DNA from: Enterococcus rotai
GTDB lineage: Bacteria; Bacillota; Bacilli; Lactobacillales; Enterococcaceae
Assembly: GCF_001465345.1 (NCBI RefSeq)
Contig: NZ_CP013655.1
Location: forward strand, 1,848,673-1,912,672
DNA: 64,000 nucleotides
Direction of reading: 5' to 3'
Each line of letters starts with the position of its first letter. The first letter of the stretch is position 1. Positions 1 to 7,800 of the stretch are shown here, in pieces. The notes below the pieces were generated by a model, which was not told where the DNA came from, made no database searches, and worked only from the letters and a program-made list of their open reading frames with translations. The translations under genes were made by a program, and so were the position numbers.

Positions 1-184
1 CTGATATAGAACGGATAGTGAATGACTGTTTAATTAATAGGTAAGTGAAAATACCGATGCTTGAGACCGCTGAGGTAATCAAGGGCCATTTAAAATTTTT
101 CATGTGCTCATCCTTACTTAATTTTCTATCCTTACTTTATCTAAAAAAGCTGATGAAGTCAAAATAATCTCGGAGGTGTCATTC
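1..184. other. intergenic leader upstream of oppB
   Basis: No convincing reading frame is visible. The stretch is AT-rich with an imperfect direct repeat around positions 111-141 (two copies of a CCTTACTT-type motif). I could not assign a clear -35/-10 pair. It probably separates oppB from an upstream gene, possibly oppA, outside the window. Confidence 0.4.
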
Positions 185-1126
185 TTGAACAGTTTTGGAA
201 AATATTTTCTTAAACGGGTCTTCTTTATGATCATCACATTGTGGTTGATCGCAACGATTACGTTTTTCTTAATGCAATTATTACCAGGTACTCCTTATAC
301 CAACCAAGAAAAACTTAGTCCAGAAACAATCGCTATGTTGAATAAGCAGTCTGGGTTAGATAAACCAGTCATCGTTCAGTATGGAATTTACTTGAAAAAC
401 CTGCTTGTTGGTGATTTTGGGATCTCATTCCAATTTAAAAACCAACCAGTAGCAAAACTTTTGGCAGGTCGTATTGGGCCTTCTGTCCAATTAGGTGCGC
501 AAGCAATCATCTTTGGAACACTAGTTGGTATTTTACTAGGGATCATTGCCGCAATGCGCCAAAACACATGGGTCGATACATTGGCTACGTTAATGGCAAT
601 TTTAGGACGTTCGATTCCTAACTTCGTCTTTGCCGTATTGTTACAATATATCTTTGCCATGAAATTAAAAGTATTACCAATCGCAATGTGGAATGGTTTT
701 GCTTATACGATTTTACCGACGATCGCCCTGGCAATGAGTCCAATGGCCGATTCCGCCAGGTTTATACGAACCGAGATGGTCGAAGTTTTACATAGTGATT
801 ATGTAGAGTTAGCTCGCGCCAAAGGTTTGAGCCGCTGGCAAGTGGCAGTGAGACACGGTCTTAGAAATAGTTTGATTCCGTTGATCACATTACTTGGACC
901 TTTAGCTGTAGGTTTAATGACTGGATCTTTAGTTGTTGAAAACATTTTCGCTATCCCAGGTATCGGGGAACAGTTCGTAAAATCAATTATGACGAATGAT
1001 TATCCAACGATTATGGCCGTAACGATTTTATATTCTGCTTTATTAGTATTTGTAATCTTGATCGTTGATTTACTTTATGGATTGATCGATCCAAGAATTC
1101 GTGTTTCAGGAGGTGCCAAAGGTTAA
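185..1126 (+). CDS. oppB: oligopeptide ABC transporter permease OppB
   Basis: Inner permease subunit of an Opp-type peptide importer in the cytoplasmic membrane. An N-terminal membrane helix (about residues 10-30) is followed by a BPD_transp_1 domain with further helices. The EAA loop reads YVELARAKGLSRWQV and the domain ends in a typical VENIFAIPGIG motif. The length (313 aa) is normal. I chose TTG at 185 because GGAGGTG at 172-178 gives 6-nt spacing; the GTG at 176 lies inside that Shine-Dalgarno. The stop overlaps the oppC start (TAATG), so the operon is translationally coupled. The substrate-binding protein OppA is not in view. Confidence 0.93.
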   Translation: MNSFGKYFLKRVFFMIITLWLIATITFFLMQLLPGTPYTNQEKLSPETIAMLNKQSGLDKPVIVQYGIYLKNLLVGDFGISFQFKNQPVAKLLAGRIGPSVQLGAQAIIFGTLVGILLGIIAAMRQNTWVDTLATLMAILGRSIPNFVFAVLLQYIFAMKLKVLPIAMWNGFAYTILPTIALAMSPMADSARFIRTEMVEVLHSDYVELARAKGLSRWQVAVRHGLRNSLIPLITLLGPLAVGLMTGSLVVENIFAIPGIGEQFVKSIMTNDYPTIMAVTILYSALLVFVILIVDLLYGLIDPRIRVSGGAKG

Positions 1127-2178
1127 TGGAAACAGTTGACTTAAACAATGTCCCAGAAAAAATCAAAAACATACCTGCAAATGACTTTCAGCCTTTGGAT
1201 ACATCAACAACCAAGGAACGTGAACGAATTGCAACGCCATCACTAAGCTTTTTACAAGATTCTTGGCGTCGTTTGAAAAAGAATAAAGCTGCTGTAATTT
1301 CGTTGATTTTACTCGGAATCATCATCTTTATTTCAATTATTACTATTTGGGTCTCACCTCATGATCCAACACAACAAAATGTAGCGTACATCAACTTGCC
1401 ACCGCGTATTCCATTTTTAGATAGTATCAATGGATTTAACGGTACAGCGAATGTGGCTGGTAAAATGGTCGATAAATACGCCCAAGCAAATGTTCCTGAT
1501 AATGTTAACTTTTACCTTGGAACAGACGGCTTAGGTCGTGACGTATTGAGCCGTTTATTCATGGGAACTCGTATCTCATTATTGATTGCATTTATCGCAG
1601 CATTACTTGATATTACGATCGGTGTAACATACGGTTTGATCTCAGGATTACTAGGCGGACGTGTGGATACGGTGATGCAACGTATCTTGGAAGTTCTTTC
1701 AGGAATTCCTAACCTTGTTGTGATGATTTTGATGCTGACTGTTTTTGATCCAGGTATTTTGTCAATCGTGTTAGCGATGGTTATTACAAACTGGATTTCA
1801 ATGGCCAGAATCGTTCGGGCTCAGACCTTGAAATTAAAAGATCAAGAATTTGTTTTAGCTGCCCAAACATTAGGAGAATCTCGTTTGAAGATCGCTGTTA
1901 AACATATTTTACCGAATATTTCCAGCGTAATTATCGTTCAAATGATGTTCAGTATCCCGTCAGCAATTTTCTTCGAAGCGTTTCTAAGTTTCATCGGTTT
2001 AGGATTAAGACCGCCGACCGCTTCACTTGGAACATTATTAAATGAAGGATATAAAACGTTCCGTTTCCTTCCATATTTGATGTGGATTCCTGCCGTAACA
2101 CTGTCAGTCGTAATGATTTGTTTCAACTTGTTAGCTGACGGACTACGTGATGCCTTCGATCCTAAGATGAAAGAGTAG
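1126..2178 (+). CDS. oppC: oligopeptide ABC transporter permease OppC
   Basis: Second permease of the Opp importer. It has a cytoplasmic N-terminal extension of about 55 residues, an OppC_N helix (about 58-78), an extracellular segment, then the BPD_transp_1 domain beginning near LGTDGLGRDVLSR. The EAA loop is EFVLAAQTLGESRLKI. It pairs with OppB to form the translocation channel. The start overlaps the oppB stop by one base. At 350 aa the length is normal for the family. Confidence 0.93.
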   Translation: METVDLNNVPEKIKNIPANDFQPLDTSTTKERERIATPSLSFLQDSWRRLKKNKAAVISLILLGIIIFISIITIWVSPHDPTQQNVAYINLPPRIPFLDSINGFNGTANVAGKMVDKYAQANVPDNVNFYLGTDGLGRDVLSRLFMGTRISLLIAFIAALLDITIGVTYGLISGLLGGRVDTVMQRILEVLSGIPNLVVMILMLTVFDPGILSIVLAMVITNWISMARIVRAQTLKLKDQEFVLAAQTLGESRLKIAVKHILPNISSVIIVQMMFSIPSAIFFEAFLSFIGLGLRPPTASLGTLLNEGYKTFRFLPYLMWIPAVTLSVVMICFNLLADGLRDAFDPKMKE

Positions 2179-2183
2179 AGTGA

Positions 2184-3245
2184 ATGACTATGGAAAAAGT
2201 ATTAGAAGTAAAAGACTTACAGATTTCTTTTGATACGTTTGCTGGAAAAGTAAATGCTATTCGTGGTGTGAGCTTTGAATTGTTCAAAGGGGAAACTCTT
2301 GCGATCGTAGGAGAGTCTGGTAGTGGTAAATCAGTAACTACTAGAAGTATCATGCGATTATTGAGCAGCAATGCAAACATTGACAATGGAGAAATCCTGT
2401 TTAAAGGTGAAGATATCGTACACAAAACGGAAAAACAAATGCAAACCATTCGTGGGAAAGAAATTGCAATGATTTTCCAAGACCCAATGACATCATTGGA
2501 TCCAACAATGCCGATTGGCAAACAAGTAGCTGAATCGTTGATCAAGCACAATAAAGTATCAAAAAAAGAAGGGCTAGATCAAGCACTAGAATTATTAAAA
2601 TTAGTAGGGATTCCAAATGCTGAAAAACGTTTGAAAAATTACCCACACCAATTTTCAGGTGGACAACGTCAACGTATCGTGATCGCGATTGCATTGATTT
2701 GTTACCCAGAAGTTCTAATTGCAGATGAACCGACAACAGCTTTGGATGTTACGATCCAAGCGCAAATTTTAGAATTATTAAAAGACTTACAACAAAAAAT
2801 CAGCACATCGATTATCTTTATCACCCATGATTTAGGGGTAGTAGCAAACGTGGCTGATCGTGTAGCCGTTATGTATGGTGGACGTTTAGTTGAAGTAGGA
2901 ACATCAGAAGAAATCTTTTATAACCCGCAGCATCCATATACATGGGGGCTACTTGGCTCAATGCCGACAATGGAAGGAACTGAAGATAAGCTATATGCGA
3001 TCCCAGGTTCACCTCCTGATTTATTAGATCCACCAAAAGGAGATGCTTTCTACCCTCGTAATGAGTTTGCAATGAAGATCGACGCAGAAGAAGCACCGCC
3101 ATATTTTGAAGTATCACCAACTCATAAAGCTGCAACGTGGTTATTAGCACCGCAAGCACCAAAAATCACCCCTCCAGCTGAAATTGCAAGACGTTGGGCG
3201 ATTTACGCTGAACGTCATAATACGACTGCAGGAGGCGTTAAATAA
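2184..3245 (+). CDS. oppD: oligopeptide ABC transporter ATPase OppD
   Basis: Nucleotide-binding subunit that powers peptide import. Visible motifs are Walker A GESGSGKS (about residues 43-50), signature FSGGQRQRI, Walker B VLIADEPTTALD and a switch histidine in ITHD. The C-terminal part is the oligopeptide/dipeptide ABC C-terminal region, but the usual Cys-rich stretch is largely replaced (GDAFYPRNEFAM). No strong Shine-Dalgarno precedes it, so initiation is probably coupled to oppC, which ends 5 bases upstream. An alternative ATG lies at 2190. Confidence 0.92.
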   Translation: MTMEKVLEVKDLQISFDTFAGKVNAIRGVSFELFKGETLAIVGESGSGKSVTTRSIMRLLSSNANIDNGEILFKGEDIVHKTEKQMQTIRGKEIAMIFQDPMTSLDPTMPIGKQVAESLIKHNKVSKKEGLDQALELLKLVGIPNAEKRLKNYPHQFSGGQRQRIVIAIALICYPEVLIADEPTTALDVTIQAQILELLKDLQQKISTSIIFITHDLGVVANVADRVAVMYGGRLVEVGTSEEIFYNPQHPYTWGLLGSMPTMEGTEDKLYAIPGSPPDLLDPPKGDAFYPRNEFAMKIDAEEAPPYFEVSPTHKAATWLLAPQAPKITPPAEIARRWAIYAERHNTTAGGVK

Positions 3246-4204
3246 TGAGTGAAAAAAGAAAAGTACTTTTAGATGTTAAAGGATTAAAACAATATTTTAA
3301 CGTTGGTCGTCCTGACGAAGTAAGAGCGGTTGATGATATTAGTTTTCATATCTATGAAGGAGAAACTTTCGGATTAGTTGGCGAGTCTGGTAGTGGTAAA
3401 TCAACGACTGGCCGTAGCGTGATTCGTTTATACGATCCTACTGATGGCGAAATCATTTTTGATGGTGATGATATCAGTAAAATTCGTTCAAAATCAGCAA
3501 TGCAAGCATTTCGTCGTGAAGTGCAAATGATCTTCCAAGATCCATATGCTTCGTTGAATCCTAGAATGAAAGTCAATGATATTATCGCTGAAGGAATCGA
3601 CATTAATCACTTGGCAAAAGATGCAGCTGAACGCGAATCAAAAGTCAATGAATTACTAAAAGTCGTTGGTCTTGATCCAAGTCACGGTACACGTTATCCA
3701 CATGAGTTTTCAGGTGGTCAACGTCAACGTATCGGGATTGCAAGAGCCTTAGCTGTTGACCCACGCTTTATCATTTGTGATGAGCCGATTTCAGCATTGG
3801 ACGTTTCGATCCAAGCGCAAGTGGTTAATTTATTGCAAGACTTACAAAAAGATGCTGGTCTGACTTACTTGTTTATTGCCCATGATTTATCAATGGTTAA
3901 ACATATCAGTGACCGTATCGGCGTGATGCATAGCGGAAGATTATTGGAAATGGGTTCAAGTGATGATGTGTATAACTTTGGTGTACATCCGTATACAGAA
4001 AGTTTATTATCAGCTATCCCACTACCTGATCCAGATTATGAACGGACGCGTAAACGGATCGTTTATAAACCGCAACCAGAAGACAATAAAGAACGCAAAT
4101 TAAGAGAAATTACACCTGAGCATTATGTGTATTGTTCAGAAGATGAAGTTGAAGTGTATCGCAAGAAAATTGAAGAGAAAAAAGCCCAAGCGAATCACGA
4201 GTAG
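3245..4204 (+). CDS. oppF: oligopeptide ABC transporter ATPase OppF
   Basis: Second ATPase of the Opp importer, heterodimerising with OppD. It has Walker A GESGSGKST, signature FSGGQRQRIGIARAL, Walker B FIICDEPISALD and H-loop IAHD. The C-terminus is charged and lysine-rich. The start codon overlaps the oppD stop (TAATG), with GCAGGAGG upstream as Shine-Dalgarno. It is the last gene of the opp operon, followed by a strong terminator and then the nuclease-dead TnpB-like gene. Confidence 0.93.
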   Translation: MSEKRKVLLDVKGLKQYFNVGRPDEVRAVDDISFHIYEGETFGLVGESGSGKSTTGRSVIRLYDPTDGEIIFDGDDISKIRSKSAMQAFRREVQMIFQDPYASLNPRMKVNDIIAEGIDINHLAKDAAERESKVNELLKVVGLDPSHGTRYPHEFSGGQRQRIGIARALAVDPRFIICDEPISALDVSIQAQVVNLLQDLQKDAGLTYLFIAHDLSMVKHISDRIGVMHSGRLLEMGSSDDVYNFGVHPYTESLLSAIPLPDPDYERTRKRIVYKPQPEDNKERKLREITPEHYVYCSEDEVEVYRKKIEEKKAQANHE

Positions 4205-4220
4205 TTTGGCAAACTAAATA

Positions 4221-4264
4221 CTAGCTAAGAAAATCAATCTGTTTTTCTTAGCTAGCATTTTTAA
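4221..4264 (+). terminator. terminator after oppF
   Basis: A stem CTAGCTAAGAAAA pairs with TTTTTCTTAGCTAG and is followed by a T-rich run. It closes the opp operon and implies that the next gene has its own promoter or depends on read-through. Confidence 0.75.
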
Positions 4265-4310
4265 AAGGTCAGATGAATGAACAAGTTTTCATTGTGACGT
4301 AATCATTTTG

Positions 4311-4428
4311 AACTAGCTTCATGAGCTAGCCTTTCGGAAAAAAGATAAAACTTGATTGTGGCCAAGAGCGCCACCCTCATGTTTTCCTATTTTTCAGTCA
4401 AGGCTGAACAGCTCATTCAGCTTTTTAT
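4311..4428 (+). repeat. structured leader repeat, copy 1
   Basis: First of two tandem copies upstream of the TnpB-like gene. It shares with the other copies the order: CTAGC-type 5' block, CGGAAAAAAGATAAA, central hairpin, TTTTCCTATTTTTCAGTC, and a GCTGAAC-AGC block ending in CAGCTTTTTAT. The central stem is GTGGC (4358-4362) with GCCAC (4370-4374) around a 7-base loop CAAGAGC. This copy is more diverged than those at 15.7, 37.6 and 58.6 kb. The first half of the neighbouring copy follows directly. Confidence 0.75.
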
Positions 4429-4555
4429 CTAATCTAGCTTCGTGGGCTAGTCTCTCGGAAAAAAGAGAAAATCTGCCTGTGACAAAAAGCGTCACAAACA
4501 TATTTTCCTATTTTTCAGTCGGTGCTAAACGAGCCCACTCAGCTTTTTATTGGTA
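4429..4555 (+). repeat. structured leader repeat, copy 2
   Basis: Second tandem copy, ending 13 bases before the start of the TnpB-like gene. The central stem is GTGAC (4479-4483) with GTCAC (4491-4495), loop AAAAAGC. Its flanks are nearly identical to copy 6 (58.6 kb), which has GTGGC/GCCAC instead, so both sides of one base pair have changed together. The outer blocks GGGCTAG and CTAAACGAGCCC can also pair. Confidence 0.8.
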
Positions 4556-4568
4556 GGGTGGGATTTTA

Positions 4569-5690
4569 ATGAAGGTGTTAAAAGCGTATAAGTATAGGCT
4601 TTACCCTACTTCAATACAGGAAGAATTTATTAAAAAAACTTTTTCTTGTGTAAGGCTTGTGCATAATCTTTTGTTGCAGGAACGGATTCAGTTATATAAG
4701 CAGCTGAAGGAAAATCCTGATTTAAAAGTTAAGTTGCCAACACCTGCTCAATATAAAAAAGAGTATCCTTGTTTAAAGGAAGTGGATAGTTTAGCTTTAT
4801 CGAACGCACAAGTTTATTTGGATCGAGCATTTAAAAAATTTCACAGAGAAAAGTCTATTGGTTTTCCTAAGTTGAAACAGAAGAAAGATTCCGTTTCCTC
4901 TTATACGACGAACAATCAAAATGGTACAGTAAAAATTATTGATGAAAAATATTTGAAAGTACCTAAGTTAAAATCGTTAGTGAAAATGAAAATGCATCGT
5001 CCAGTAATAGGGAAAATAAAGTCAGTAACGATTTCTTTGACTCCTAGTAATAAGTATTTTGCTTCAATCTTGTGTGAAGAGGAAATTCCAACGATCGAGA
5101 AGACGTATTCGGCGGTTGGCATAACCTTAGGTGCTTCTGAATTTGCGGTATTATCAAACGGTAGACGTATCGACAATGATAAATTTACGAAAGAATTTGA
5201 GCAGCGAATCACTAGAGAGGAACGAAAACTGACACGGCGTAAAGAAATTGCAAAAGCAAAAGGAACTGATCTTTCGCAACAAAAAAATTATCAGAAACAA
5301 AAGCTGAAAGTAGCAAAAATGCGGGAGAAGTTGATGAATCAGCGAATCGATTTTCTTAATAAGATTACGACAGAAATTGTTCGAAAGTATGATTTGATTT
5401 GCATAGAAGATATTCATCAAGCTGATTTTTATAGAAATAGTAAGTTGCATCGTGGTATCTCAGATGTTTCTTGGGCTTTATTTGTTTCAAAGCTTGAATA
5501 TAAAGCTACATGGTATAACAAAAGAGTAATCAAGGTTTTAGCTTGCAAAAAATGTTCTGAACATTCAGAAAATAGTGTGAGTCAAATTTTTACTCAAGAT
5601 ATCAATGAGCAAAAAGGACTGCAAGATCCTGAGACCGCTGCTAGTATCAACGTATTGATCCAAGGATTGAAAGAAACAACAGGTAACTAA
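4569..5690 (+). CDS. nuclease-dead TnpB-like protein (TldR-type RNA-guided repressor candidate)
   Basis: A 373-aa IS200/IS605 TnpB homologue. It has the N-terminal TnpB motif (AYKYRLYPT), the OrfB central region and a RuvC-like domain. The RuvC-I motif reads VGITLG where active TnpB has VGIDLG, so the catalytic Asp is Thr186. The RuvC-II Glu is kept (ICIED, Glu280). The RuvC-III DRDxNAA motif is QDPETAAS, with Glu355 in place of Asp. The zinc ribbon keeps only one CxxC (Cys326, Cys329). Yet the frame is intact, with no TnpA partner or obvious transposon ends. Loss of catalysis, intactness and position behind oppF match the oppF-associated TldR proteins described in enterococci, which use a guide RNA to bind DNA and repress transcription. 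Function here is inferred. Confidence 0.85.
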   Translation: MKVLKAYKYRLYPTSIQEEFIKKTFSCVRLVHNLLLQERIQLYKQLKENPDLKVKLPTPAQYKKEYPCLKEVDSLALSNAQVYLDRAFKKFHREKSIGFPKLKQKKDSVSSYTTNNQNGTVKIIDEKYLKVPKLKSLVKMKMHRPVIGKIKSVTISLTPSNKYFASILCEEEIPTIEKTYSAVGITLGASEFAVLSNGRRIDNDKFTKEFEQRITREERKLTRRKEIAKAKGTDLSQQKNYQKQKLKVAKMREKLMNQRIDFLNKITTEIVRKYDLICIEDIHQADFYRNSKLHRGISDVSWALFVSKLEYKATWYNKRVIKVLACKKCSEHSENSVSQIFTQDINEQKGLQDPETAASINVLIQGLKETTGN

Positions 5691-5775
5691 CAAAGCAAAG
5701 AACTGTAGGGACTACAGGGATAGCCTAGGGCATATAAGATAGATATAGCGTTTAGTCGATCATTTGTCTTTTTCT
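5640..5775 (+). ncRNA. putative TldR guide RNA (omegaRNA-like), approximate ends
   Basis: In TnpB systems the guide RNA overlaps the 3' end of the gene and runs past its stop. Here the region beyond the stop (5690) holds a compact hairpin, CTGTAG (5703-5708) / GGA / CTACAG (5712-5717), then GATAGCC-TAG-GGC (about 5719-5731). That resembles an omegaRNA 3' scaffold. The guide would then start somewhere around 5732-5745. A second hairpin ATTTCTAG/TTA/CTAGAAAT lies at 5781-5799. Neither end, nor the guide boundary, can be fixed by eye. Confidence 0.5.
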
Positions 5776-5837
5776 AGGAAATTTCTAGTTACTAGAAATA
5801 GTTCACTAATTATTAGTTAATGAAAAATAAAAAGTTG

Positions 5838-7650: not shown

Positions 7651-7667
7651 GTTAAAGTTGAGAAATG

Positions 7668-7800
7668 AAAGCAGAAGCACCCGCTTCTCGCCTTAGTTGA
7701 CAGTGTCACTGGGCTGGATATTGGATTCTTTATATCGATTGATATGAGTCCGAAAATCGCGGGATCTGTATACAGAGCCTGTTTTTTATTGTGTTTTACA
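7668..7800 (+). promoter_or_regulatory. infC-rpmI-rplT leader / attenuator (L20-leader type)
   Basis: The leader begins with hairpin GCAGAAGC-ACCC-GCTTCT. After an intervening region comes a terminator-like hairpin built on TCTGTATACAGA and closed by GGG/CCT, followed by a T-rich run (about 7760-7796). Low-GC Gram-positive infC operons use such leaders for feedback by L20 through terminator/antiterminator switching. That mechanism is inferred from family knowledge; I did not fold the RNA. Confidence 0.7.

Follow-up and report, generated by a model that had tools for sequence, protein, structure and literature searches.

The window, a stretch of 64,000 nucleotides of the Enterococcus rotai chromosome corresponding to G000:C1:1848673-1912672, opens with four genes of a peptide ABC transporter, oppB to oppF, and oppA lies immediately before it (read in locus L033). 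Behind oppF follow an inverted repeat, two copies of a dispersed repeat, a gene for a TnpB homologue, here named tldR, and a region that reads as a guide RNA (Table 1).

Table 1. Features of the opp-tldR locus, in positions of the window
Feature	Position	Strand	Basis
oppB, oppC, oppD, oppF: peptide ABC transporter genes, presumed regulated operon	176..4204	+	ORFs, orthologous operons
Inverted repeat and T-tract directly after oppF, probable terminator	4216..4265	+	arms 4216-4236/4240-4260
Two copies of a dispersed repeat of ~120 bp in the oppF-tldR gap	4313-4409 and 4434-4530	+	75 genome matches at E<=1e-3
tldR, nuclease-dead TnpB homologue, 373 aa	4569..5690	+	ORF, domains, RuvC alignment, dN/dS
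Rfam RF02841 Ref70 (Enterococcus sRNA 70), full-length match	5697..5818	+	132.8 bits, gathering 115, E 2.2e-26
Predicted guide-RNA scaffold: stem-loop 1, stem 2, long-range helix	5701..5806	+	alignment, covariation
Predicted guide TAATTATTAGTTAATG	5807..5822	+	first 8 nt match oppA promoter site

The tldR gene and its protein

The first-pass annotation had described an intact TnpB homologue behind oppF, and the frame is indeed unbroken, with 373 codons and no internal stop. The protein scores above the cut-off for the Pfam models HTH_OrfB_IS605 and OrfB_IS605 and reaches 218 bits with NF040570 (cut-off 100), in line with TnpB homology, while the TNB/zinc-ribbon model of Pfam matches it below its cut-off only. 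Its best sequence matches in the PDB are a designed nuclease (9yyg) and TnpB (8h1j and 8bf8). Alignment with 13 intact TnpB loci, which read DLG / E / HDRD, agrees with the substitutions proposed in the same annotation: RuvC-I reads VGITLG where intact TnpB has VGVDLG (Asp to Thr186), RuvC-III reads QDPETAAS where intact TnpB has HDRDINAS (Asp to Glu355), and only the RuvC-II residue Glu280 is retained. T186, E280 and E355 thus stand in place of the D-E-D site of active IS200/IS605 TnpB. The annotated loss of one zinc-ribbon CxxC is found as well, the second CxxC being deleted and CKKC still there. The alignment of RuvC residues that the annotation had suggested, extended over the genus, shows the catalytic site to be lost in 21 of 21 orthologues: the RuvC-I position is Thr in 18 and Ser in three, and Glu occupies both the RuvC-II and the RuvC-III position in all of them.

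The median dN/dS is 0.064 for tldR versus 0.026 for oppF, calculated over 11 of the 21 loci and from pairs with dS<1.5 only (15 of 55 pairs for tldR, 29 of 55 for oppF). Since the site is dead in every one of the 21 orthologues and dN/dS is low, it appears that tldR has been maintained as a working, probably non-cutting protein. Mobile copies elsewhere in the genome, which would have spoken against a domesticated gene, were not found: tldR is single-copy in the 3.75-Mb single-contig genome (E<=1e-3), and the sole Y1-transposase match there (G000:C1:252049-252408) has an internal stop. The gene occurs in 21 of the 22 genomes of the genus and stands behind oppF, a non-transposon gene, in all 21; its presumed immobility rests on this constant place and on the single copy. 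The 22nd genome, G003, has neither a close OppF (best 50%) nor an OppB at E<=1e-90. The nearest named orthologue is that of Enterococcus caccae (97% identical).

Part of the TnpB/TldR matches of the family was fetched for comparison at the level of the locus. Among these, intact IS200/IS605-type TnpB proteins of the Enterococcaceae (L109-L114) are 49-56% identical to TldR, and their scaffold likewise ends in GTTCAC. They differ from TldR in their intact D-E-D site, in having several matches in most of these genomes, in carrying six different guides in the six copies read (one per genome), and in lacking an opp orthologue on either side within the stretch fetched.

The predicted guide RNA and its proposed target before oppA

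Aligned across 11 species, the region 3' of tldR contains a conserved block that extends to GTTCAC and is followed by TAATTATTAG, with conservation fading beyond. The match to Ref70, a family that Rfam names only 'Enterococcus sRNA 70', spans the predicted guide RNA plus 12 nt of the guide. Ref70 was reached in four of 13 related loci scanned (L057, L064, L071 and L089); the genus loci L072 and L075 and the scanned loci of other genera except L089 stayed below the gathering score. A strict guide-RNA pattern matches 53 of the 81 fetched loci, and its 28 misses are the 13 intact-TnpB loci, 11 loci lacking TldR and four tldR loci (L090, L100, L102 and L166), the first three of which visibly carry the guide RNA.

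The scaffold is supported by its pairing. RNAalifold folded 51 distinct guide RNAs at -8.3 kcal/mol; over 200 column shuffles the energy averaged -0.1, and no shuffle reached so low a value. Both helices have more paired cells than any of the 500 partner shuffles or of the four slid versions, a significance that is somewhat overstated because the sequences are related and kinship was kept out of the shuffles. In stem 2 (columns 38-44/66-72) 317 of 339 cells are paired, versus 173-212 of 329-341 in the slid versions; changes on both sides occur at five of its seven pairs, barely more than the three to four of the slid versions. The long-range helix, which joins the loop of stem 1 to the bases immediately 5' of the guide, has 303 of 306 cells paired (72-135 in the slid versions) and an exchange of A-U for G-C at one of its six pairs. 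It agrees with the pseudoknot of TnpB omega-RNAs. A conserved scaffold followed by a guide, adjacent to the gene, is what a TldR would be expected to have, and the downstream RNA is likely to be the guide RNA of TldR. Ref70, so far a catalogued sRNA family, would thereby gain a likely function.

The target had been left open in the first-pass annotation; the likely one is the promoter of the adjacent opp operon. TTTAATAATTATT, which consists of TTTAA and the first 8 guide bases, is found on the minus strand, close before oppA (G000:C1:1846610-1846622), about 2.05 kb before the start of the window. Within the clade of the window's TldR, made up of the 21 genus loci and L089 of genus code g2, all 22 loci have TTTAA with 7-9 guide bases ahead of oppA: 20 loci match 8 bases, one matches 9 and one matches 7. 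The site stands 46-52 bases before oppA in every case. The other tldR loci have TTTAA with 7 (23 loci) or 6 (six loci) guide bases in 29 of 29 cases, on the plus strand. Altogether, wherever a tldR locus has a readable oppA (51 of 51), the 5' end of the guide is matched behind TTTAA, which we assume to be the TAM. This count leaves out four rows in which a tandem oppA copy is supernumerary or cut (L107 and L165, where oppA is cut by the edge of the stretch, the second copy of L121, without a site, and the second copy of L164, with a 6-nt site). It also leaves out the loci whose stretch contains no oppA orthologue, to which the tldR loci L101, L102, L104, L108, L166 and L168 belong. The two tandem oppA genes of L164 are each preceded by a TTTAA-TAATTA site, and L156, L157 and L167 have an additional minus-strand site in the oppA-oppB gap.

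Among orthologous opp loci with no TldR in the fetched stretch at E<=1e-5, none of 11 exceeds four matching bases, and TTTA[AT]TAATTA is absent from the fetched stretch of all 11; because ten of these 11 come from one genus, they represent few independent events, perhaps two. Three of the TldR-less genomes (G024, G035 and G079) have an intact TnpB elsewhere. L161, one of the loci without TldR, has TTTTAATCAAAATTCTT in the promoter spacer where its TldR-bearing relatives have TTTTAATAATTATT, which looks like a site that decayed once the regulator was lost. L163, which belongs to that genus code too, combines a 6-nt site with a tldR match interrupted by stops.

The pairing between guide and target is short (6-9 nt), and the window's site recurs in 24 of 20,000 dinucleotide-shuffled promoters (1 to 139 of 20,000 for the six promoters tried). 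Of the 21 tldR genomes, two have TTTAATAATTATT at oppA and nowhere else, and the remaining 19 have 2-4 copies including that at oppA. Over the 22 genomes there is no excess of the sequence (50 versus 49 for the reversed control), and a search of the own genome with the whole guide at <=3 mismatches gave no signal (107 matches versus 149 for the reversed control). Since TTTAATAATTATT is no commoner genome-wide than its reversed control, the argument for the target is one of place, register and co-occurrence.

Promoter geometry, operon linkage and proposed repression

A promoter of the form TTGnnn-17-TAAA[AC]T was recognised by its conservation in 56 of 64 oppA upstream rows, and a sigma-70 scan of two oppA promoters returned no promoter at its cut-off. 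Ten of the 11 TldR-less opp loci retain the identical 6-17-6 arrangement. The predicted target site was found at two positions relative to this promoter: in 25 rows it lies on the plus strand within the 17-base spacer between -35 and -10, and in 21 rows, which are the 21 genus loci, it is on the minus strand and begins 20-22 bases downstream of where the -10 begins. The guide core TAATTAT is identical in both groups. The simplest reading would be that the site moved and the guide core did not, a switch of strand being easy because the core AATAATTATT is palindrome-like. In 20 of 21 genus loci the site borders on a CodY-like box with 2 mismatches to the CodY consensus, and ten of 11 TldR-less loci contain one with <=3 mismatches; nutrient control of the opp operon is therefore probable too.

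The linkage of tldR to the operon differs between the lineages. Outside the window's genus tldR starts 7-66 nt past oppF in 19 of the 22 loci measured, the remaining three having a gap of 539 nt (L107), a gap of 158 nt (L125) and an overlapping start call (L122); in L089 the gap is 40 nt. In these genera tldR would usually be the co-transcribed tail gene of the opp operon. In the genus of the window a hairpin of the form CTAGCTA[AG]GAAAA...TTTTCTTAGCTAG directly follows oppF in 16 of 21 loci (L055-L070), with a gap of 145-896 nt. The repeat of ~120 bp in the window's gap has internal hairpins and is often tandem; by eye, it also stands before oppA (L033:2745-2990), and no copy was seen between oppF and tldR in L061, L062, L063 and L065. 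It looks like a small non-coding mobile element and probably stands outside the regulatory function.

We consider it highly probable that tldR encodes an oppF-associated TldR that gives RNA-guided repression of oppABCDF, the individual steps being deduced from sequence comparison. The protein would bind the RNA encoded 3' of its own gene. The site recognised by the complex would be TTTAA with TAATTATT behind it, which lies on the strand opposite oppA, 21-33 bases past the beginning of the oppA -10. Because TldR is presumably unable to cut, the complex would obstruct RNA polymerase during promoter escape or immediately afterwards, and the expression of oppABCDF would fall. In the other genera, where tldR usually closes the operon, this would probably amount to negative feedback, whereas in the lineage of the window the terminator-like hairpin between oppF and tldR suggests that repression is less tied to operon output, and feedback is weaker or tldR separately driven. 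The idea of a TldR-type RNA-guided regulator, put forward in the first-pass annotation, gains support from the RuvC site that is dead in all 21 orthologues, the covarying guide RNA beside the gene and the match to the guide behind TTTAA in the oppA promoter.

The features at the oppA promoter might also be explained by an ordinary DNA-binding repressor that uses the motif as its site, Ref70 then being an unrelated sRNA that acts on mRNA. The palindrome-like form of the motif, the CodY-like boxes that adjoin it and the listing of Ref70 as an sRNA fit such an arrangement, and the palindrome-like, AT-rich core could be the site of another factor. We nevertheless regard this explanation as unlikely, given that the motif is lacking in all 11 TldR-less opp promoters although ten of them have a CodY-like box (<=3 mismatches), that guide and motif are in register behind TTTAA, and that the pairing of the scaffold includes the helix abutting the guide.

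Two further explanations concern the protein itself. That tldR is a fixed, decaying TnpB relic without function, and the matches leftovers or chance, is very improbable in view of the low dN/dS, the unbroken frames of all 21 genus orthologues, the covariation of the guide RNA and the conservation of guide core and promoter site; what speaks for a relic is the erosion of zinc ribbon and RuvC-III, which has gone further in other genera, and the matches interrupted by stops in G078, G074 and G061. An active nuclease with substituted acidic residues, serving in homing or defence, would be in keeping with the retained Glu280 and the acidic Glu355, but the RuvC-I Asp has been replaced by Thr or Ser throughout the genus, and the predicted target would be the oppA promoter of the own chromosome in each host, which makes a cutting enzyme scarcely credible.

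RNA-guided repression by a TldR is not new as such. Wiegand et al. reportedly described oppF-associated TldRs in enterococci in 2024 (in Nature), and these are reported to be, likewise, nuclease-dead TnpB derivatives beside enterococcal oppF with an adjacent guide RNA. The class is thus already known, and the arrangement of the target may be new; the link to Ref70 and the switch in strand and position of the target come from the present analysis. In the literature searched there was no paper joining TldR, TnpB and oppF, and none joining Ref70 with Enterococcus. A fliC-associated TldR of prophages is described as a dead TnpB that represses a promoter guided by RNA (Walker et al. 2026, PMC13418256). 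It is prophage-borne and directed at flagellin, whereas the TldR of the window is chromosomal, lies beside an operon and has a peptide transporter as its predicted target; the main text of that paper (PMC13418256) makes no mention of Enterococc-, oppF or ABC transporter. The opp locus would offer a concrete chromosomal circuit for the TldR class, with guide, target, promoter geometry and natural genomes with and without the regulator. It also allows one to ask how an RNA-guided regulator evolves, and whether the guide, the target, the strand or the operon linkage is free to change. Peptide uptake serves enterococci both in nutrition and in peptide signalling, and control of this uptake by a domesticated transposon protein would for that reason be of wider interest.

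Distribution, origin and candidate further targets

More eroded TldRs (about 307-380 aa, with the RuvC-III part gone) stand behind orthologous oppF genes in eight further genus codes of the Enterococcaceae (g4-g10 and g17). The protein of L089 in g2 is of an intermediate type, and in G078, G074 and G061 the tldR matches are interrupted by stops. The TldRs of the window's clade form one clade (100/98) and those of the other genera another (100/100). The joining of the two is weak in the free trees, with SH-aLRT 90 over 77 rows and 85/30 over 43 rows; trees that separate them were not rejected (p-AU 0.80-0.81) and even outscored the free quick tree by 13.4 log-likelihood units. A scaffold pairing CCTAG/CTAGG, which replaces CTTGG/CCAAG, is by eye common to both groups. 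Because place, guide core and this by-eye pairing are shared, we favour a single domestication of both oppF-TldR groups.

Sites other than that of oppA were also considered. The genus has 29 non-oppA TTTAATAATTATT sites, and the 20 that were fetched fall into 12 groups of like places. Three of the 12 precede transporter genes, namely those of an oligopeptide ATPase (PF00005 + PF08352), an SBP_bac_5 protein and a Peripla_BP_6 protein; the remaining groups lie within genes or before others, for example a MurC-like gene. The site before the oligopeptide ATPase gene holds the same place in eight of the 18 genomes with the gene (two of them match 6 nt only), lies elsewhere in one and is absent in nine, and the SBP_bac_5 and Peripla_BP_6 sites were each seen in two genomes. 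The oligopeptide ATPase operon as a putative second target is a lead, from a pattern noticed post hoc and without a control. In L193, L196, L199, L202 and L206 the sequence TTTAATAATTATT stands 54-72 bp upstream of the oligopeptide ABC ATPase gene. Further such sites are those of L197/L200 and L205/L207; all of them precede peptide or amino-acid transporter genes, are lineage-specific and are possible extra targets of TldR. It is conceivable, if somewhat doubtful, that the target was rewired by turnover of the DNA site around an unchanged guide core and that a terminator uncoupled tldR from the operon, and that the genus may be drawing additional peptide and amino-acid transporter promoters into a small nutrient regulon guided by RNA.

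Some loci depart from the common arrangement. In L108 TldR stands behind a different opp operon, and a TTTAATAATTAT site is found upstream of the first gene of that operon. The TldR of L101 has the usual guide core in a genome (G058) without an OppB at E<=1e-90; one of the three TTTAATAATTAT sites of this genome lies ~60 bp before an open frame that, by eye, resembles a Sir2-type deacetylase. G061 and G065 have a second TldR away from opp (L102 and L104).

Elsewhere in the window, a ribosomal protein L20 leader (RF00558, 58.8 bits, gathering 58.7) was found at 7663-7795, in front of genes that read like infC, rpmI and rplT.
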